Shown piece by piece: positions 6,324 to 50,494 of a stretch of DNA of 52,201 bases. The notes under the pieces are model-generated. The model searched no databases. It worked only from the letters and a program-made list of their open reading frames with translations, and had not been told where the DNA came from. The position numbers and the translations under genes were made by a program. Each line of letters starts with the position of its first letter. The stretch's first letter is position 1. The DNA comes from a virus, in IMG/VR virus record IMGVR_UViG_3300045970_000109, positions 1-52,201 of that record; one strand, written 5' to 3'.

Positions 6324-8333
6324 TTAATCTCCTGTTTCGTCTGTGTTCAGCATTTTTACGCTGAAAGGTTCTGCCGCACTAAGGATTGTGAGGTAATACT
6401 CAATCCCGGTGTGAAATAGATCCGACAATCCTTCTGTCGTTCCTACTTTAGTGGGACCATACTTAGTGACAAGCAGTTGTGGAAGGGTAGTAGTGAAATA
6501 CTCCTTTGCTAGTTCAAGCCAAGAGATAATATCCGTTGGCGTGTTGAGGTTGGCAACTGAGTTAAAGATCATGAGAGCTTCTGGACTCAAATGAACCATA
6601 GTTCTGAGTAACTGACCATCTTTAAGAGCATCCTGGTATTTAAGATGCCAGAAAGGAGTCATTCTCATCTTAGTTCCGCCATAGGAGTCGTTACTTTTAA
6701 CTTTCTCCTCAATAGCATGCTCAGCCGCTGTAGATAGTATGAAATTAGTAGTCATGAAAGACACTAAATTCTGGCTTTGTGTGAAGAAGAGTCGTTGCCG
6801 ATCTTCATACATGCCGCTTGAGTTACCTCTAGCAAACAAGAGCATAATAGCTGGTAGATTAAGGTTCAAAGAGAACTTCTTGTTGAAGGAAATACACTCA
6901 CCATCGCTAGTACCAGAGTAGTATCGCATAATTCTACGAGGATCCGTATCATCGTAATGATACGAACCAGAACCGAACTGGCCGAAGAGGTTATTGAAGA
7001 TGCTACCGTCTGTATAAGGCGTAACACCTCCATCACTCTCTCCCATATATAGGGTTCTATACTCATCGTTAGCTAGATTATAGATGTCCTGCTTTTTATC
7101 AGCAAGAGCTTGTCTAGCCTTTGCTAACCACTTTGCTTGTGGGATCTGATAAAGAACTACTGGAGCGAATGTCTCATGCATCATAGCAGGATCTAGATCA
7201 GCAGCAAGCTGGAAGTAGAAGATCCAGTTCAAGAACTGAATGAAATCTTCTCTCAGAGACTTAGTAATACGAGTCTGCAGAGCAGTTGCCTTTAGCTTGT
7301 CGCTCTTACGGATATAAGAGAACATGCCATCAGGAGAAGTAACGATGTCATACCGAGGATTGTTAGTATACTTCTTGGTATCCTCCTCTGTCATCACCGA
7401 ATACTTCCTAGTGATAAGATCCTTATTTTCTACTGCAACCTTAGATTTCTGGAAGGTTGCGATAGCGTTGAAGCTGAAGCGTAGGTATTTCCTGTCGCTA
7501 ACAAAGTTGGATACATCCTTAATACCCATGAAGACACTATTATCACTGTCTCCATACCGGCTACCTTCACCGGTTAGAACCGCAGTGTTCTCTAGTAGAT
7601 CGCCATACTCTACTTGGGAGATTGATCTGATGAGTGCAGGTAAAGAGCTTCCATACGCATGGCCAGATGAGAAGTAGTTGCTGGACTGTTTTGGGTAAAG
7701 CAGAAAGTAAAGATCATCATTACCCTTTAGCTTCTCAATACTACCATGCCTGATATAGCCCTTAGCAATAGACAGAGACTTGTGAGAGTCTGCGTTATTA
7801 GGAACGATACCGTTTCTAGGTTGAAAGACGAACCAGGAAGTCTTAGGAAGCTTCATTAGTTCATCTTTGTCAACCTCTAGAAGTTCCTCGGCCGCTTTAC
7901 TATCAGGAGCAAATCCGAAAAAGTAAGAGCTGAACTCAAACTCACAGGCTTTCTTATCTTTCTCCTTAGGTCCAGTAATGAGGTGTGGCTTAGATCCAGC
8001 TAGCATAGACAGGATCTTACCATTCAACCACAGAAGACGAATCAAACCTCCTTGATTAACTAGCAGTGATGTAAACACTGAATAGGAAGCATCAGAATTA
8101 TCTTTATAGCGAGAAGTACAAACCTTCTTACCATAGAAGTCGGTAAGGAAGGTCTGCATCTCCTGGCTAAACTTGATAATCTCTGAATCCTTCTCAAAGG
8201 TGATTTCGTGTGTTGTTACGTATGCTCTATCTTCTAGACCTAAGAAGGTCCAATCGGAAGCAGAGCCTTTTACAATGTCTTGTATCAGTGCTCCTAACTC
8301 CTCTAGAGTTATATTACTCCTCAGTCTTGTCAT
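6324..8333 (-). CDS. Large hypothetical protein, 669 aa
   Basis: Not recognised. No signal peptide, membrane segment, P-loop or metal motif could be found by eye. It is rich in aromatic and Ser/Asn residues in the middle (FGQFGSGSYHYDDTDP), which suggests a beta-rich or structural domain. It overlaps the upstream 717-residue gene by 20 bases. The two giant unknown genes and the 211-residue gene directly precede the MoxR-VWA pair and are candidate clients or partners of it. Confidence 0.8.
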   Translation of the reverse strand: MTRLRSNITLEELGALIQDIVKGSASDWTFLGLEDRAYVTTHEITFEKDSEIIKFSQEMQTFLTDFYGKKVCTSRYKDNSDASYSVFTSLLVNQGGLIRLLWLNGKILSMLAGSKPHLITGPKEKDKKACEFEFSSYFFGFAPDSKAAEELLEVDKDELMKLPKTSWFVFQPRNGIVPNNADSHKSLSIAKGYIRHGSIEKLKGNDDLYFLLYPKQSSNYFSSGHAYGSSLPALIRSISQVEYGDLLENTAVLTGEGSRYGDSDNSVFMGIKDVSNFVSDRKYLRFSFNAIATFQKSKVAVENKDLITRKYSVMTEEDTKKYTNNPRYDIVTSPDGMFSYIRKSDKLKATALQTRITKSLREDFIQFLNWIFYFQLAADLDPAMMHETFAPVVLYQIPQAKWLAKARQALADKKQDIYNLANDEYRTLYMGESDGGVTPYTDGSIFNNLFGQFGSGSYHYDDTDPRRIMRYYSGTSDGECISFNKKFSLNLNLPAIMLLFARGNSSGMYEDRQRLFFTQSQNLVSFMTTNFILSTAAEHAIEEKVKSNDSYGGTKMRMTPFWHLKYQDALKDGQLLRTMVHLSPEALMIFNSVANLNTPTDIISWLELAKEYFTTTLPQLLVTKYGPTKVGTTEGLSDLFHTGIEYYLTILSAAEPFSVKMLNTDETGD

Positions 8334-17818: not shown

Positions 17819-18250
17819 ATGAAGAAACAGGCAGTAAAACCAAAGACTAAGTTGTTAACTAACTCTCTAGTTACTACCGGAAGAAGTCAAGGTGAGGAAA
17901 TCATTATTGCCTTATTGAGGGTGGCGTTCCCAGGACTTAAGATCGAAAGAAACGATAAGTCTGTTTTAGGCAGGCAAGAAATTGATATTCACCTTGTGGA
18001 CTATAAGATTGCTATCGAATGCGATGGAATCACTCATTCCAAGCCTATTTATGGGCAAAAGCGGTTTGAGGAGTCTGTAGCAAGGGATATTAAAAAGGAA
18101 GCCCGTCTTGCTGAATTGGGCTTCCTATTATATCGGGTAGATATCGGTGAAGTGGAAAAGGAAAAGTTGTATTCTTTTATCAAGAACTATATGAATACCA
18201 ACCTAATACCACAATTGAAAGAAGTTATCGTAAAGCGAGTTCCTTCTTGA
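17819..18250 (+). CDS. Vsr-like (PD-(D/E)XK) homing endonuclease
   Basis: 143 residues from the ATG at 17819; a TTG at 17801 is in frame but less likely. The core GRQEIDIHLVDYKIAIECDG followed by ITHSKPIYGQKRFEES is the very-short-patch-repair/DUF559-type nuclease fold used by some free-standing phage homing endonucleases. The same D-I-x-x-x-x-Y/L-K-x-A core recurs in the protein at 26659. It is on the plus strand, opposite all its neighbours, and its 3' end overlaps the next minus-strand gene by 26 bases. Confidence 0.82.
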   Translation: MKKQAVKPKTKLLTNSLVTTGRSQGEEIIIALLRVAFPGLKIERNDKSVLGRQEIDIHLVDYKIAIECDGITHSKPIYGQKRFEESVARDIKKEARLAELGFLLYRVDIGEVEKEKLYSFIKNYMNTNLIPQLKEVIVKRVPS

Positions 18251-19211
18251 CATACGACATCTGAGTAGACTTATACCAGTTGTCTAGATAGTCCATGTCA
18301 ATGTTCTCCTGAAGAGTGCTATTTGGCATTGAGTTATCCATAAGAAGGTTATAACCCACTTCCAACAGCGTTTGGGCCATCTCAAACGTACAAGCCTCAT
18401 TGAATCTAATGTCTCGTAAGGCACTTCTTACTGGTTCAGGTCTTGGGAAAACTAATTCTCCTGTAGTTAACAGTTCGTTTGCTTCGTCAATAATACGAAG
18501 AGCGTTATACATAGCTTTGCGATCAAAAGCACCACCTTCGGCAGCTTTCTTAGCTCGCTCTCCATAACGACTAATCATCGTTTCTATACGACTCTTCCAC
18601 TCATTGAATGGAACTAAACACTCAAACTGTTTATCAAGAATCTTGTAATAAGTAACAGGCTGACCGCCACTGTTAATCTTTTCGCCCCTCGTTATCAGAG
18701 TTGGATACTGCTCACATATCTTAGGAAGACCTACTGATGCATATTTACCATCAGTATAATCTTCACCAGTAGTGTCAGTAGTGACTGAATGGTATTTAGC
18801 CCAATAAATCATATCATCTTTGATAGCTCGGAGCATATTAAGAGAATTACCCTTTTCAGAATAAACCCTTGCCTGGGTCTTTGCATAATCTGCAAAGGGA
18901 GTGATGTTCTTACTCACCAGACAGTGTTTATTCGCACGGAGTTCTTCCCATACTGGGGAAGTCTCTATGATAAACTCCTTTGGCGTAAATAACATCTCTA
19001 TAGCGTTGGTTTGCTGTTGACCTAACAACAAGGCAAACCTTTTCAAACTCATGTGTTCAGTATCAGGGTCATAGGTGCGGAAACAATCATCAGCACCCGT
19101 AATCAGCTCTGACAGAGAGTGTGCGAAGACAACTTTATAGTCCCGGTCCGATTTTTCATAGTTGGTTCCATATAAGTGTGAGCCATGCAATGTTTGTACT
19201 ACAACCTTCAC
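18225..19211 (-). CDS. COG3541-like nucleotidyltransferase
   Basis: 328 residues starting MKVVVQTLHGSHLYGT followed by NYEKSDRDYK: the GS...G...SDxD pattern of pol-beta-fold predicted nucleotidyltransferases often found in phages. The helical C-terminal half contains KAMYNALRIIDEANELL. The substrate is unknown. The gene starts where the GIY-YIG gene ends (four shared bases). Confidence 0.82.
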   Translation of the reverse strand: MKVVVQTLHGSHLYGTNYEKSDRDYKVVFAHSLSELITGADDCFRTYDPDTEHMSLKRFALLLGQQQTNAIEMLFTPKEFIIETSPVWEELRANKHCLVSKNITPFADYAKTQARVYSEKGNSLNMLRAIKDDMIYWAKYHSVTTDTTGEDYTDGKYASVGLPKICEQYPTLITRGEKINSGGQPVTYYKILDKQFECLVPFNEWKSRIETMISRYGERAKKAAEGGAFDRKAMYNALRIIDEANELLTTGELVFPRPEPVRSALRDIRFNEACTFEMAQTLLEVGYNLLMDNSMPNSTLQENIDMDYLDNWYKSTQMSYVKKELALR

Positions 19212-27419: not shown

Positions 27420-27650
27420 TAGATTTTATGTTCAAGACTCTTGTTAGGTGTTCTGTTCCTAACTTTACTGCTCTGGTAGAATAGATAGATGCTGGTAAGA
27501 GTCTTAATTGTATTGCCAAGACTTCCATAGGCCGAAGCCATCTGTATAAGAGGGTGTTTGCTGAATTGACGAAGTCTTCTTGCGATGAGGTCTTTAAGTG
27601 CTATGAAGCGTAGCCAAATACTAACGGCTGTGTTTAAAAGGTGACCTCAT
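27420..27650. other. 231-bp non-coding spacer with paired repeats
   Basis: AAGACTCTT (27434) pairs with AAGAGTCTT (27497) around a GTTAGG/CCTAAC hairpin (27443-27463), and AAGACTTC/GAAGTCTT form a second stem further on. No gene is seen. It may be an RNA leader of tRNA-Ser or a separate ncRNA. Confidence 0.4.
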
Positions 27651-28365: not shown

Positions 28366-28441
28366 TGGTGGCTCTGGCGGTAGTCGAAACCGCGATAAAA
28401 GGTTTAGAGTCTCCTGCTTTGGGCCGCTAAGCTACAGAGCC
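28366..28441 (-). tRNA. Amber-suppressor-type tRNA (CTA anticodon)
   Basis: Acceptor GGCTCTG/CAGAGCC, D stem GCTT/AAGC, T arm GCGGT-TTCGACT-ACCGC and encoded CCA are regular. The anticodon loop reads CTCTAAA with U33 and A37, giving CTA, which reads UAG. The anticodon stem GGAGA/CCTTT is weak (two G-U pairs and an A-C mismatch), so the tRNA may be degenerate or have special decoding. Confidence 0.7.
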
Positions 28442-28632
28442 AATATTCAAGACACAGTTTTGCTTTTTCCAATAAAAAGTTTTTTGAGTTGCTGGATGTG
28501 TCTTACATTTTTTCAAGACGCCTCTTTTTTCTATTAACAGTAGAATGAGGTTGGTTGCTGATGGCATCTTCTTGATATATTCTAGATCCATTCTCTACAT
28601 GGGCGAGGAATATGCTGTGAGGATCTGGTCGT

Positions 28633-31992: not shown

Positions 31993-32277
31993 CTATTGGG
32001 TATCAACCTCTACTTTGTATTCATGCATCTCACATTCACCATGCTCTGTCCAACCAGAATAAGCTCGTTTACCACCTTGAGCTATCTCGCCCATACAAAT
32101 CCACCCTTTAGGCTCATTGCAATGGCATTTCTGCCTAGGGTCTTTTGCTGGTAACTTTACTGTTGTACAGTGGTGAAAGTCCTGAATGTGGTGTTTGCAG
32201 TTACAGCAGCAGTTATGAGGTCTGGTATTAAGATCTTCGATACAACGATGTGCCTCTACAATCTCACACGGTTTCAT
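31993..32277 (-). CDS. Cys/His-rich zinc-binding protein, 94 aa
   Basis: CCCNCKHH at residues 23-30 and later CHC, CMG and HGECEMHEY give many potential ligands. The spacing is not that of a named finger. It overlaps the RNA ligase gene's end by 14 bases, so the two are coupled. Confidence 0.72.
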   Translation of the reverse strand: MKPCEIVEAHRCIEDLNTRPHNCCCNCKHHIQDFHHCTTVKLPAKDPRQKCHCNEPKGWICMGEIAQGGKRAYSGWTEHGECEMHEYKVEVDTQ

Positions 32278-33631
32278 GATCGGTATCTACCTCTTCTTCA
32301 TCTGCCAAGCTCTGTTCAGATTCCAAGTCAACTAGACCCTTATCCAGATCCTTGGTTTCCTTATCCAAGAAGGCAAAGTTCTTCAGTTTATAAGCAGGGC
32401 ACTCAAAAAGGCCGTCTACTCTTACGACGATACCTTCTTCCCAAACATCACCACTATTCAGCGGACATTTTCTATCACGCATGTAATCGGCTTCCAACTT
32501 AGCCAAGAAGTTTTGATTCCAATGCTGCTCAAGAGGAATGTCAGGGCAGTAATCCTTAGCTTTACCATAGTAGAACTCCGTTACATGTTTGATTCCGTAT
32601 TTATTGCAATATTCCTTGATCTGCGGCCAGGAGAACTCAATCACCTGTCCCGCAGCATTAGTAGAGGTAATGCGATAAACGTAAACCTCATGTTCGTTAG
32701 GGCGTGTGCCATAGTGGTAGCCTTTTTGGATCCAAGCTCCTGTTGGAAGCTGACCTACAGCTTCGCCGTATAGAGTGATACCATCCTGAATGCTACTCTT
32801 AAGGTAATCTGCGATCACGCCCCACAAGTCAAAGTTGTAAAAGCCGCTATTAACAGTTGTGTTAATATACTTGTTCTTAACAACAGTACGACTTGAATAG
32901 ATGACATCGTATTTGGTATTATTAAAAGCTGTTGGAACGAACTTGGTAAAGATGGACTTCCACCAGGGGAGTGGCTCCTTAGTAAGAACCTTACCAACAA
33001 CCCAAGAAGTACCATGAATCTTGTTAGTAATGCTGATCATGTCCTCTGGATTGAGCTTGTGTGCATTGCGGCGAAGGTTTTCGGTGTCAATGTGCAGTCT
33101 GAACTGATTCTCCACCAGACGATCAAACTTATTGACCTTCTTCTTATCCTTCTGCTTCTGTGTGCCAGACTCTTTTACGCGAATGACATACTTGCAGCAG
33201 ATTTCATGCCCGAGGATCTTATCGAAGTCAACACCCTTAACGATGTAGGGTTCAAGTTCCTTAGCGCGGGTGATATCAATCATGATGTAATTGAGACAGG
33301 CAATAGGCATGAACAAGCCTTCCGACTTATGACCACGGAACTTCATGGTCTTAATGCGCCTGTTTTCTTCAAAGTAACCCTTCTTGGTTACATCCCTATT
33401 GAGTTCAGCCTTACGATAAAGGTTGTTCTCGCCAACAAAATCATGACTAAGCTGTGTCTCAGCAGGGAAGAACAAACCAAGATCACCAACCTTGGTATCT
33501 TTCCCAACAATTACGCTGTTACCAAAGATAATAGCAGCGACAACATTGTCACAATTTTCCAGCTCAACTAGCTTTTCAATCTCAACCAGTGTGGCGCAGT
33601 AGTTAGGATTGATTGGTTTTTCAAGGCTCAT
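32264..33631 (-). CDS. RNA ligase, DraRnl/Rnl5-type (TIGR02306-like)
   Basis: 455 residues. Nucleotidyltransferase motifs are in order: motif I NKIHGTSWVVGK (Lys accepts AMP), motif III TLYGEAVGQLP, motif IV WEEGIVVRVDG, motif V YKLKNF. The N-terminal domain LVEIEKLVELENCDNV with IVGKDTKVGDLGLFF fits the Rnl5 OB domain. The enzyme seals RNA 3'-OH/5'-phosphate nicks with ATP. Neighbouring Gly/Thr tRNAs, and a kinase and phosphatases further on, suggest RNA repair. Confidence 0.92.
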   Translation of the reverse strand: MSLEKPINPNYCATLVEIEKLVELENCDNVVAAIIFGNSVIVGKDTKVGDLGLFFPAETQLSHDFVGENNLYRKAELNRDVTKKGYFEENRRIKTMKFRGHKSEGLFMPIACLNYIMIDITRAKELEPYIVKGVDFDKILGHEICCKYVIRVKESGTQKQKDKKKVNKFDRLVENQFRLHIDTENLRRNAHKLNPEDMISITNKIHGTSWVVGKVLTKEPLPWWKSIFTKFVPTAFNNTKYDVIYSSRTVVKNKYINTTVNSGFYNFDLWGVIADYLKSSIQDGITLYGEAVGQLPTGAWIQKGYHYGTRPNEHEVYVYRITSTNAAGQVIEFSWPQIKEYCNKYGIKHVTEFYYGKAKDYCPDIPLEQHWNQNFLAKLEADYMRDRKCPLNSGDVWEEGIVVRVDGLFECPAYKLKNFAFLDKETKDLDKGLVDLESEQSLADEEEVDTDHETV

Positions 33632-36534: not shown

Positions 36535-36630
36535 TTACATTCCTACTCGGATCATCATTTCTCCAGGTTATATACTAGACTCGTTTTAGCGATTGGGTTG
36601 GATGCAGTTGTAGAGTCTATAACTTAATTC

Positions 36631-36679
36631 TAGGCCCATCTTCATCAGCATAAGATTGGGTGTTTGCAGTAAGGGCCTA
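36631..36679 (-). terminator. Hairpin after the Ro60-like gene
   Basis: TAGGCCC (36631) pairs with GGGCCTA (36673), with an inner CCCATCTT/AAGATTGGG stem. It begins five bases after the stop. There is no clear U-run, so it is a processing or weak termination element. Confidence 0.45.
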
Positions 36680-36684
36680 ATGTA

Positions 36685-38166
36685 TTACAGTGAAAAGGGC
36701 GCTACAGCTTCCTTCACAGGAGCGTAGCGTGGGTTGTCAAGGACTTCCATCAGCATCTCAATTGGAGATACTGAGGTGGCGTTAACCGCCTTCTGGAAGA
36801 TAGAAGGAGAGCATCCTGAAACAAGATACACACCCTTCTCGTCCTTGGTAACTGGAGCTTGCTGGCCTCGGCTAGCAACATTCCAGAACACCACCTTAGG
36901 CAGCTCGTAACCAGCATCTGCAAACTTACGCTTAGCGGATTCAAAGTTAGTCAAGCTGCTGTCTCGCATACAACGATCAAACTCCATGTCGGAGATGATG
37001 AAGATGCTGTCAGGCAGTTCGGACTGAGGAACCTTATTGGAAACTGCAGCGTTCAACACAAGGTCAAACACAGCTTCCATGTTAGTGTTCATGTCCCAAT
37101 TAGCCTGAGAAAGATTATTGATACGCTCACGAAGAGTAGTATCAACAAGGTTCTGAAGCTGAGGACGCTCAGAGAAGGTAATGAACTGATCCTTGAAGCA
37201 ACCCTTATTGCGCTCGGCAATGTAGATAGCAAGAGAGATACAGACCTCCATAGGAGTTCCGCTCATGCTACCAGACACGTCAGCAACAACAAGAGCATTC
37301 TTGTCGGTATCAGCATAGTTAGGCAACTGCTTCCACAGAGCCTCAAGAGTCAGGTCGACTCCACTGGAAGCTCCCCAACCACCATGAATACCATACTTGT
37401 GCAGGATGTCATAGGGATAGAGAACTGCAGAGTTGATCTTCACTTCACCCTTAACAGCGGCTTCAATAAACTGCTGATACCGTGTGGCATCATGCTTAGC
37501 GAAAGCCTGCTTGTAGATGAGAGAAGCCCTGGAAGGAACAGAAGAGTAGTTCACCTTAACCCACTCGTTAGCAGACATCTTACGCTCAACGATGTCAATG
37601 TGCTTACGAAGAGCAGACAACTTCTGCCTGTATTCCTTTTCAGTCAGGCCGAGAATCTTAGCCCACTTACGACCAAGAGCCTGAGTCTCCTTAGAGGAAG
37701 TGTTGATAGAAGGCATCCACTTGGCAAGCAAGGAGATAGACTCGCTATCCTTCATGTGGTCGGAGTCAATGTTCAGCTGAGCCTTGATAAGCTCTCTGAC
37801 AATAGGACTATCGGTATATTCGAGAATGTCATCCCAACGACCATACTCAGATACCATGTTAACCACGGTATCGAAGATCAAAGGGCGTTCATTCTTCAGG
37901 ATAGTTAGGCAATTACGGAAACTATCCCGTTCTCCCTGCCCACCGCGAGGATCACGCAAGTAGAAAAGAACTCGCGTGGCCAGTCCTGCGTCAGAGGACA
38001 ATGCCTTATGGAAAAGGTTATCAATCTCAGTCTTCTGACCGCGCTTGGCAGGAGCGTGATAGAAGAAGTCCAGGATGTTATCCATCGTGGAGCTGTGAGT
38101 TACAGCATCATTCTCTGTACGAGTCATGTTGCTGGTCTGTGCGAGAGCCTGTTGGAAGAGATTCAT
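36685..38166 (-). CDS. Ro60-like RNA-binding protein (TROVE/DUF2828 plus VWA)
   Basis: 493 residues from MNLFQQALAQTS at 38166 (AAAGGA ahead). The N-terminal half is helical-repeat-like with FYLRDPRGGQGERDSFRN and GRWDDILEY, as in TROVE/DUF2828 proteins. The C-terminal VWA domain has MIDAS motifs ALVVADVSGSMSG, the Thr in DMNTNMEA and FIISDMEFD. Ro60 proteins bind misfolded and Y RNAs in their ring. A tRNA-mimic RNA on the same strand (38294-38405) lies just upstream. A palindrome (ACGGTT/AACCGT) at 38187-38199 overlaps the leader and may regulate. Confidence 0.82.
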   Translation of the reverse strand: MNLFQQALAQTSNMTRTENDAVTHSSTMDNILDFFYHAPAKRGQKTEIDNLFHKALSSDAGLATRVLFYLRDPRGGQGERDSFRNCLTILKNERPLIFDTVVNMVSEYGRWDDILEYTDSPIVRELIKAQLNIDSDHMKDSESISLLAKWMPSINTSSKETQALGRKWAKILGLTEKEYRQKLSALRKHIDIVERKMSANEWVKVNYSSVPSRASLIYKQAFAKHDATRYQQFIEAAVKGEVKINSAVLYPYDILHKYGIHGGWGASSGVDLTLEALWKQLPNYADTDKNALVVADVSGSMSGTPMEVCISLAIYIAERNKGCFKDQFITFSERPQLQNLVDTTLRERINNLSQANWDMNTNMEAVFDLVLNAAVSNKVPQSELPDSIFIISDMEFDRCMRDSSLTNFESAKRKFADAGYELPKVVFWNVASRGQQAPVTKDEKGVYLVSGCSPSIFQKAVNATSVSPIEMLMEVLDNPRYAPVKEAVAPFSL

Positions 38167-38186
38167 GGTATTTCCTTTCAAGATAC

Positions 38187-38199
38187 GGTTTAACCGTGT
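38187..38199 (-). promoter_or_regulatory. Palindrome in the leader of the Ro60-like gene
   Basis: ACGGTT and AACCGT around a single base, 20 bases ahead of the start codon. It is a possible operator or small RNA stem. Confidence 0.35.
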
Positions 38200-38293
38200 G
38201 ATGGTGGGATTGCTGTTAGTATCTTAGTAATGAAATCTAGAGGCCTTCGGGCTTTAACCGTTGAGTTGCTGCATGCCTCTATAAATGAATGAC

Positions 38294-38405
38294 AAGGGAT
38301 GTTATTTAGTCGGACGCTCTACCAGCTGAGCTACAGTGGGTATGAACCACCAGTGAGATTCGAACTCACGACACTCTGATTATTTTTAGTTGCTGTTAAT
38401 CCCTT
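38294..38405 (-). ncRNA. YrlA-like Y RNA candidate (circularly permuted tRNA mimic)
   Basis: In transcript order: closing strand AAGGGAT (38405-38399), anticodon-like strand TCAGA, T arm GTGAG-TTCGAAT-CTCAC (38369-38353), an acceptor-like hairpin TGGTGG / CCCACTG capped by a short loop, TA, D arm GCTC..GG..GAGC (38331-38316), anticodon-like strand TCCGA, and ATCCCTT (38300-38294) pairing with the first strand. So tRNA landmarks occur 3' half first, with no free CCA end, as reported for bacterial YrlA RNAs. The neighbouring gene downstream is Ro60-like. A decayed tRNA is the alternative. Confidence 0.65.
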
Positions 38406-38741
38406 TGAATAGCTGTAATGTTTGTAACCAAGAGAACTTTACCGAGTAAAAGGAGGTTGGTTTGTAGTTGCTGCTGTTCTCTTTCTGTTACATTGGGTTT
38501 GTATCAAGACACAAATTGGTTGGGCCAATCACTCCTGGTAACAAGGATGCCCGAAGGCTAGCTTTGTTGGTTGGTTGCGGTGTATGTCTTTGGTAATGCC
38601 TAGGCGCAGCTTGGTAAGTTCAAGCAGACTAGCGATTCGGGGCTCGCCACACCTTGCATAGCTCTTTCGAGCAAGACAGTTTTGTTGCAGTACACGCCTT
38701 TGGACTAGTCATATCGGATCGACAGGGTTAAAACCGAAATG
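38406..38741. other. Non-coding leader between CGATAYA site and Y-like RNA
   Basis: About 330 bases without an ORF. It contains repeats of GCAGCAACT and a GCCCGAAGGC that could pair with its complement near 38240. It could be part of a longer precursor of the Y-like RNA. I see no tRNA in it. Confidence 0.4.
38710..38716 (-). promoter_or_regulatory. CGATAYA motif ahead of Y-RNA region
   Basis: The minus strand reads GATCCGATATGACTAG. It would start a transcript near 38700 that runs through the Y-like RNA into the Ro60-like gene. Confidence 0.35.
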
Positions 38742-41294: not shown

Positions 41295-41519
41295 TCATGG
41301 AACCTCTATAATCTCAAAATGTTCTCTAAGGACGGGAATACTTATATTATTTTGTTCTGTCCATCCTCGAAAAGAAAATCTAAAATCAATTTGATTATCT
41401 TTTACTCTATCTAAAAAATTAATAAGGTCTTCTTTTTTATAATACTTAAGACCTTCTGGCTTAAGAACATATTCTCCAGTTGGAAGATATAAAAGTTCAT
41501 GATTTATAACTTTTCCCAT
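41295..41519 (-). CDS. LYLPTGE-family small protein, 74 aa
   Basis: HELLYLPTGEYVLKPEGL near the N-terminus and NNISIPVLREHFEIIEVP at the end: a minimal member of the family. It overlaps the kinase gene by 16 bases. Confidence 0.78.
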   Translation of the reverse strand: MGKVINHELLYLPTGEYVLKPEGLKYYKKEDLINFLDRVKDNQIDFRFSFRGWTEQNNISIPVLREHFEIIEVP

Positions 41520-41881
41520 CGGTCCCTCATCTTCTTGATGTGTTCCTCAGAAACACCATGAATGTTGGGATAGTTACCAGTCATCTCAATGACCTTAATA
41601 GGAATGTTAAGTTCCTTGGCCATATCAAAGTAGGCTTGCATCTCCCACTTCTTCGTGAAGGTATTACTGACAGCAACAGAGTTGCCAGCAAGGAGGTTCT
41701 TCCTAACCTCATCCTGGCACCACTTGTGAGCCTTACCAAGCAGTGAGCCATCCCACTTATACTCTCCGCTCAGGCTGAAATACATATCAGTCTCCAAGTG
41801 AGTGTATTCGGTGAGGGTCTTAGCAAAGGTAGACTTGCCACTACCAGGAAGACCACGAATAAGAAGGATGTTGACAGCCAT
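41504..41881 (-). CDS. PNK-like P-loop kinase
   Basis: 125 residues. LIRGLPGSGKSTFAKTL is Walker A; HLETDMYFSLSGEY provides the acidic residue, and a lid-like RKNLLAGNSVAVSNTFTKK follows. This is the AAA_33/T4 PNK-type kinase fold, which puts phosphate on 5'-OH nucleic-acid ends or small substrates. It is nine bases from a metallophosphoesterase gene, so kinase and phosphatase may form an end-healing pair with the RNA ligase. Confidence 0.8.
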   Translation of the reverse strand: MAVNILLIRGLPGSGKSTFAKTLTEYTHLETDMYFSLSGEYKWDGSLLGKAHKWCQDEVRKNLLAGNSVAVSNTFTKKWEMQAYFDMAKELNIPIKVIEMTGNYPNIHGVSEEHIKKMRDRWEKL

Positions 41882-47616: not shown

Positions 47617-47766
47617 GTGAACCTCGAAAAGAAACTAGACCCCAATTTCATTTTTGTATTTCGGAAACAATAAACCGACTCGGGATAGTCAATACTAGCG
47701 GCTACCCGAGAATTCACTGGTCATTGGGAGTTGGTAGCTGTATGGGTCTAAAAGGGTTAAAAGAAC

Positions 47767-49927: not shown

Positions 49928-50119
49928 CTATCTCCTAATTCGCGGAATTGAAACGGGGTTCTGCACAGTTGGCATAGGACGCATACGAGCTTCATATGCT
50001 GCGAGCTGTTTCTCTAACAACTCAATGTATTCTGCCGCTGACACCATGAGATTGTTTCTCTGATCAGGACCCTGAGGTGGATGAGAAGCAGCATATCTAA
50101 GGTCTTGTACTAAACCCAT
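49928..50119 (-). CDS. Hypothetical protein, 63 aa
   Basis: MGLVQDLRYAASHPPQGPDQ with a central helix (SAAEYIELLEKQLAAYEARM). AAGGAG ahead of the start. The pattern 'RxxAxxxP.....L...AAxxIxxLE' is common in small phage proteins. Confidence 0.7.
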   Translation of the reverse strand: MGLVQDLRYAASHPPQGPDQRNNLMVSAAEYIELLEKQLAAYEARMRPMPTVQNPVSIPRIRR

Positions 50120-50419
50120 ATAGTCTCCTTATAAATGGTTGTGGTTGAATTATGTCCAGACTACACGCCTCTCTGGACTCGCTAGGATTTCGCGGCGTAA
50201 CGAGTGAGTAAAACCAAACCCTCTGATCCCGCTGGTCGGAATATAGGAGTCGAACCTATAGGATTTTTAAACACTCTTTAAGAAGGTAGTAAACTCAACA
50301 AACTCCACTTGTCATAAGACTTGGCGATTGTCCCGAGTATGACCCTTCTTAGGTAGCACCTAGCTTCAAGCACTTGAAGTCGTAGTCATAGTGTCAACTC
50401 CGTCAGTGCAGGTATTGAT
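50120..50419. other. 300-bp non-coding span holding a tRNA-mimic RNA
   Basis: It lies between tRNA-Arg and the gene at 49928. It contains stems TAAGAAGG/CCTTCTTA, GTCATA/TATGAC and GTCCAGA/TCTGGAC (50156-50180), and the candidate Y-like RNA listed separately. No ORF is seen. Confidence 0.45.
50202..50276 (-). ncRNA. Second tRNA-mimic (Y-RNA-like) candidate
   Basis: In transcript order: GAGTG, T arm ATAGG-TTCGACT-CCTAT, hairpin ATTCCG-ACCAG-CGGGAT in place of an open acceptor, CA, D-like arm (GAG...GG...CTC), and CACTC, which pairs perfectly with GAGTG. This is again the 3' half before the 5' half with a capped acceptor. The 12 bases between GAGTG and the T arm are longer than in tRNA. Less sure than 38294-38405 because no Ro60 gene adjoins and the flanking stem is unclear. 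Confidence 0.5.
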
Positions 50420-50494
50420 TGGTCCACCCGGCAGGATTTGAACCTGCGTATTCGCTTTAGAAGAGCGATGCTAAATCCCCTCAGCTACGGGTGG
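50420..50494 (-). tRNA. tRNA-Arg(TCT)
   Basis: Acceptor CCACCCG/CGGGTGG, D stem GCTG/TAGC-type, anticodon stem TCGCT/AGCGA with loop CTTCTAA, T arm GCAGG-TTCAAAT-CCTGC, encoded CCA. Confidence 0.93.

Follow-up and report, generated by a model that had tools for sequence, protein, structure and literature searches.

The stretch of viral DNA analysed here (the window; 52,201 nt, IMG/VR record IMGVR_UViG_3300045970_000109) contains 12 tRNA genes, a gene for a Ro60-fold protein and a series of Y-type RNA hairpins (Table 1). Close to one end lies a small element at 50202-50276, in which the halves of a tRNA-like structure appear in reversed order. All of its named letters are on the minus strand, which direct reading and ARAGORN show to be the strand of the 12 tRNAs. 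As the preliminary description noted, the element lies downstream of tRNA-Arg; the gap after 50494-50420 is 143 nt. Directly upstream of the element (50279-50351, minus) there is a hairpin of 73 nt with 8 perfect closing pairs. It belongs to no known family, and its fold z of -3.1 is inflated since the repeat set the ends. No ORF of at least 60 aa crosses the element, and no promoter or terminator was found near it. Elsewhere in the window, ARAGORN calls a tRNA at 28366-28441 (minus) with anticodon CTA; it is labelled Pyl and is possibly an amber suppressor, and the annotation of Klebsiella phage phi1_175008 has a similar tRNA call.

Table 1. Coordinates of the 50202 element, the neighbouring tRNA, the Ro gene and the Y-type RNAs in the window
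Feature	Position	Strand	Basis
tRNA-Arg (tct), 143 nt upstream of 50202 element	50420..50494	-	ARAGORN; Rfam tRNA 64.2 bits
Closing stem, 5' strand GAGTG	50272..50276	-	direct reading
T arm ATAGG-TTCGACT-CCTAT	50243..50259	-	direct reading; canonical
Acceptor-like hairpin ATTCCG-ACCAG-CGGGAT, ACCA in loop	50226..50242	-	direct reading
D-like arm GAG-GGTTTGGTTTTA-CTC, weak, 3 bp, contains GG	50206..50223	-	descriptor; absent from predicted fold
Closing stem, 3' strand CACTC	50202..50206	-	direct reading; base 50206 common to D-like arm
Ro60/TROVE-fold protein, 498 aa	36685..38181	-	phrog_850, DUF2828/DUF7788; AlphaFold
YrlA-type Y RNA, Ro stem AAGGGAT/ATCCCTTG, ACAGCAA motif, tRNA-like module	38293..38405	-	RF02553, R1, Ro-stem signature
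Y-type hairpin AAGATAC..ACAGCAA..GTATCTTG	38179..38225	-	signature scan
Y-type hairpin TAGAGGC..GCAGCAA..GCCTCTAG	38237..38281	-	signature scan
Y-type hairpin AAGAGAAC..GCAGCAA..GTTCTCTTG	38429..38483	-	signature scan
Y-type hairpin AAGACATA..ACCGCAA..TGTGTCTTG	38505..38590	-	signature scan
Y-type hairpin TAGGCCC..ACTGCAA..GGGCCTAG, just past Ro gene	36630..36679	-	signature scan
Y-type hairpin AAGACACA..CCAGCAA..TGTGTCTTG	28448..28504	-	signature scan
Y-type hairpin AAGATGCC..TCAGCAA..GGCGTCTTG	28514..28570	-	signature scan
Y-type hairpin AAGACTCTT..CCAGCAT..AAGAGTCTTG, variant motif	27433..27505	-	looser signature scan
Y-type hairpin TAGACCC..ACAGCTA..GGGTCTAG	47635..47750	-	signature scan

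The product of 36685-38181 is assigned to phrog_850, an RNA-binding protein, and its homologues are annotated as Ro-like in mycobacteriophages. The top 8 PDB matches of its AlphaFold model (pLDDT 88) are all Ro60, Rsr or TROVE proteins, among them a Ro60 from Thermus phage phiLo. The RNA at 38293-38405 sits just upstream of this gene, and 38290-38406 matches the YrlA family RF02553 at 31.8 bits (E 2.1e-5), which is under the gathering score of 69. Given the Ro60-fold protein and the RF02553 match, both a Ro protein and a Y RNA of the YrlA type are therefore present in the phage. tRNA-like modules on Y RNAs are already known in bacteria and mycobacteriophages, according to work cited in PMC7790460 and PMC12282133, and ROT/TROVE proteins in jumbo phages are noted in PMC7824862. 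The minus strand also encodes a possible RNA repair set beside the Ro protein: an RNA ligase (32264-33631), an RlaP-type nucleotidyltransferase (18225-19211) and a P-loop kinase-like protein (41504-41881).

Y hairpins of phages with a Ro60-fold protein have a common signature: a lower stem of at least 7 bp opening with [AT]AG, an ACAGCAA-type motif, a variable part, and CT[AT]G at the end of the 3' strand. Across 93 Ro-gene loci (1.41 Mb) there are 152 matches to it on the Ro strand and 3 on the opposite strand, compared with 1 per shuffle; its frame was taken from members of the same 93 loci, which leaves the strand asymmetry and the shuffles unaffected. There are up to 7 copies per locus (for example in L067, L083, L042 and L003). 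A looser scan for a Ro stem with any stem and motif gives 69 observed and 56.6 expected matches, and has little power until the [AT]AG..CT[AT]G ends are required. In the window the signature matches nine times on the minus strand and never on the plus strand, as against 0.115 per shuffled strand. The looser window scan adds 27433-27505, which brings the number of Y-type hairpins to 9-10. Five are consecutive at 38179-38590, before the Ro gene. A tRNA-like module is present only in 38293-38405; most of these hairpins have neither such a module nor an Rfam match. The constancy of the signature stem and the company it keeps suggest that it is the Ro-binding site. Where a phage has a Ro60-fold protein, this simple signature singles out its Y-type RNAs, of which there are often several, and it is a direct test that separates predicted Ro ligands from look-alikes such as the 50202 element.

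The D arms of the Y RNAs within one phage imitate tRNAs of different flavours, such as GCTCAGTTGGTAGAGC, TGGCTGAATGGTTAAAGC and GTGTAACGGTAGCAT (loci L007, L012, L009/L030, L067, L083 and L097). For Listeria phage CKA15, it has been proposed that CKA15_059-061, which are abundant transcripts, may be Y RNAs (PMC12282133). This phage has three ACAGCAA hairpins between CKA15_056 and the Ro gene (L126, 4663-4720, 4751-4810 and 4821-4927); they directly precede the Ro gene and are not at the hyper-transcribed CKA15_059-061 region (PMC12282133).

The 50202 element begins with a T arm, followed at once by a hairpin and then a D-like arm, and every letter of this layout as originally described is present on the minus strand. 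The T arm (50259-50243) is one substitution from the T arms of real phage tRNAs, and its pairs have probabilities of 0.85-0.97 in the energy model. The hairpin (50242-50226) abuts it, has 6 bp including one G-U (pair probability 0.70-0.96), and is placed as the acceptor by the alignment of covariance model R1. The linker CA (50225-50224) connects it to the D-like arm (50223-50206), which consists of just 3 bp closing a loop of 12 nt and has a pair probability of about 0; the minimum free energy fold favours AAATCCT/AGGGTTT over the D arm. However, D arms are also badly predicted in genuine Y RNAs of phages (mean probability 0.38), so folding energy is not decisive on this point. The flanking GAGTG/CACTC described earlier is present as letters, with a pair probability of 0.23, but C 50206 belongs both to it and to the D-like arm, so that the 5-bp closing stem and a full D arm are mutually exclusive. 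The region as a whole folds no better than its shuffles (z about -0.2 for 101 nt and -0.1 for 145 nt).

A descriptor consisting of a T arm, an adjacent 5-7 bp hairpin and a D arm with GG has exactly two matches in the window: the 50202 element and 38364, which is part of 38294-38405. It matches 25 times in 2301 dinucleotide shuffles (10 of the 25 with a closing stem), or 0.011 per window; this estimate of chance is optimistic, the descriptor having been composed post hoc with the element already known. Real phage DNA (1.43 Mb, both strands) contains 1-2 unexplained matches, meaning matches that are not tRNA, not tmRNA and not motif-bearing, or about 0.04-0.07 per window. Model R1 is a less biased test of the element; it was built on 19 RNAs from other phages and includes neither window element. 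With filters off, its scan of the window puts 38316-38369 first (52.5 bits, E 2.6e-11) and 50206-50259 second (23.7 bits, E 3e-4); the third, at 18.2 bits, overlaps tRNA-Arg. The score of the 50202 element comes mostly from the T arm, which alone reaches up to 15 bits in tRNAs here, and the rest of the module adds about 9 bits. Pair counts on alignment A2 are not independent evidence, since its members were selected for pairing. The topology with reversed halves that was claimed to be common to the element and 38294-38405 is borne out, as a model trained without either ranks both at the top. The YrlA family RF02553 matches 38290-38406 and not the 50202 element. Many RF02553 and R1 matches in other phages are neighbouring tRNA genes, and raw matches were filtered accordingly; the 50202 element is not such a pair, and the tandem-tRNA look-alike was rejected.

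The suggestion that the element is a second Y RNA fares poorly. The tRNA-like module of T arm, acceptor hairpin and D arm is recovered by both R1 and the descriptor, although its D arm is weak, and a Ro-like protein is encoded in the same genome, as would be expected for a Y RNA. However, the signature scans find no Ro stem with an ACAGCAA-type motif on the 5' side of this module. Upstream, the closest approach to ACAGCAA differs from it at 3 positions, which is the random level, whereas 20 of 22 free-standing modules of other phages have a match with 0-2 mismatches. No C[AT]GC motif occurs within 120 nt of the element; at other loci, every free-standing R1 match of at least 23.7 bits with neither arm in a tRNA has one. 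RF02553 gives no match to 50100-50420 even at E<=10. On signature, motif and RF02553 the element was rejected as a second Y RNA. A true Y RNA whose Ro-binding part has diverged past recognition, which the Ro-like protein would bind and which would present a tRNA-like module in the manner of 38293-38405, is improbable. It would account for the identical topology, and several Y RNAs of differing tRNA flavours are frequent in Ro phages; AAGAGTG/CACTC-G-TT also faintly resembles an AAG..CTT lower stem, and Enterococcus phages have one other motif-less module (L007:877-932), which 31 records conserve. Besides the missing signature, motif and family match, it must contend with the distance from closing stem to T arm, which is only 12 nt compared with roughly 35-45 in others by inspection.

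Permuted tRNA genes that are matured by circularisation occur in some algae and archaea, and the element had also been proposed to be a permuted tRNA needing circular processing. Its 3' half with ACCA comes one G before the 5' half, and the phage encodes an RNA ligase (32264-33631), by which such a gene would be circularised, as well as the RlaP-type nucleotidyltransferase (18225-19211). When the halves are rejoined, however, a tRNA is called in 1 of 832 trials; 38364 gives 128 such calls and typical phage Y RNAs give 46-613. The latter keep better tRNA geometry than the 50202 element, though they are not tRNAs. In addition, the acceptor is one pair short, the anticodon loop is unrecognisable and the D arm is poor. 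A working permuted tRNA was rejected on the rejoining result, and maturation through the phage ligase is hardly credible. A normal 5' half upstream that folds better with the T arm was sought with ARAGORN and Rfam and not found, there being no tRNA at 50120-50419, and an ordinary tRNA with an upstream 5' half was likewise rejected. ARAGORN calls no tmRNA in the window, Rfam gives no tmRNA match and there is no tag frame at the element, which was therefore also rejected as a permuted tmRNA. The element is neither a demonstrated Y RNA nor a demonstrated permuted tRNA gene.

The 3' half of the element, hairpin loop included, continues as a real tRNA end does. It reads ATAGGTTCGACTCCTATATTCC-GACCA, compared with ATAGGTTCGAATCCTATATTCCCGACCA of a phage tRNA-Pro in L131, from which it differs by one substitution and one deletion (it is one C shorter); L131 was retrieved using the first 22 letters as the pattern, and only the trailing GACCA is independent. 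CCA is encoded by 11 of the 12 window tRNAs. The Y RNA of Sinorhizobium phage phiM7 likewise retains ACCA in its acceptor loop. This loop and the tRNA-like 3' end of the 50202 element suggest that the modules derive from tandem or permuted tRNA sequence. For the element itself, the source was probably such a sequence with a 3' half nearest to tRNA-Pro, and the module consists of a tRNA 3' half that closes with ACCA, a single G, and a 5' half complementary to the first. On balance, we regard it as a tRNA-like module in circularly permuted order that has no Ro-binding stem; it would now be a relic in decay, or else a bare tRNA mimic or processing element. For recognition, tRNA enzymes such as RNase P need no more than a T arm stacked on an acceptor-like hairpin; mitochondrial t-elements (PMC11658184) set a precedent. 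Within a transcript running from tRNA-Arg to the ORF at 50119, if there is one, the element might direct processing or serve as a decoy.

Chance or plain decay is a doubtful explanation, though one of some weight. The element would then be the 3' end of a dead tRNA (T arm, acceptor and CCA) beside unrelated sequence that pairs with it by accident, and would have no function. This is consistent with the weak D-like arm, the closing stem that is incompatible with it, and a whole-region fold that is not above shuffles. DNA, flanking-protein and pattern searches of phages, plasmids and viral contigs found no homologues of the locus; a looser T-arm pattern search returned mostly ordinary tRNA 3' ends in other phages. 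Real phage DNA also yields about 0.04-0.07 unexplained descriptor matches per window. Yet a hairpin complementary at 6 of 6 positions exactly where the acceptor should be, together with a GG D loop, is rare (0.011 per window), and the R1 score is well apart from those of the next non-tRNA sites. It is unlikely that the element is instead a functional free-standing permuted tRNA-like RNA, belonging to a second, Ro-independent class of phage tRNA mimic; if it were, it could serve as a processing signal recognised by RNase P or as a decoy for host defences that attack tRNAs.

By itself, the permuted module at 50202 is a modest curiosity, and its comparison with phage Y RNAs is more useful. YrlA-type bacterial Y RNA (Rfam RF02553, structure 6CU1; Chen 2014 and Wang 2018, as cited in PMC7790460 and PMC11472068) has the same T arm, 6-bp acceptor-like hairpin, 2-nt linker, D arm and flanking closing pairs in the same order. 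Unlike it, the 50202 element lacks a Ro-binding stem, an ACAGCAA motif and an RF02553 match; its D arm is weak and it has ACCA in the loop. The topology of the tRNA-like module is also that of 38293-38405, but the latter has a Ro stem, the motif, a canonical D arm (GCTCAGCTGGTAGAGC) and a place in the Y array by the Ro gene, none of which is found at 50202. The module of Enterococcus phage TJE1 (L007:877-932) is similarly permuted, without an ACAGC motif and in the tRNA cluster of a Ro phage; it differs in having a strong 9-bp closing stem and a full D arm, and it is conserved at 95-100% in the 31 Enterococcus phage records. Permuted tmRNA also has its 3' acceptor half ahead of the 5' half, whereas the element has no tag frame and the window no tmRNA call. 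A permuted tmRNA is present at 7950-8243 (ARAGORN, tag ANKIVAFSRQTALV) in viral contig L042, which has a Ro-like gene and 26 tRNAs. Mitochondrial t-elements (PMC11658184) are tRNA-like structures adjoining mRNA that can be cut by tRNA enzymes, as the 50202 element putatively can; they have the normal order and their processing is demonstrated, whereas the 50202 element is known here from its sequence.
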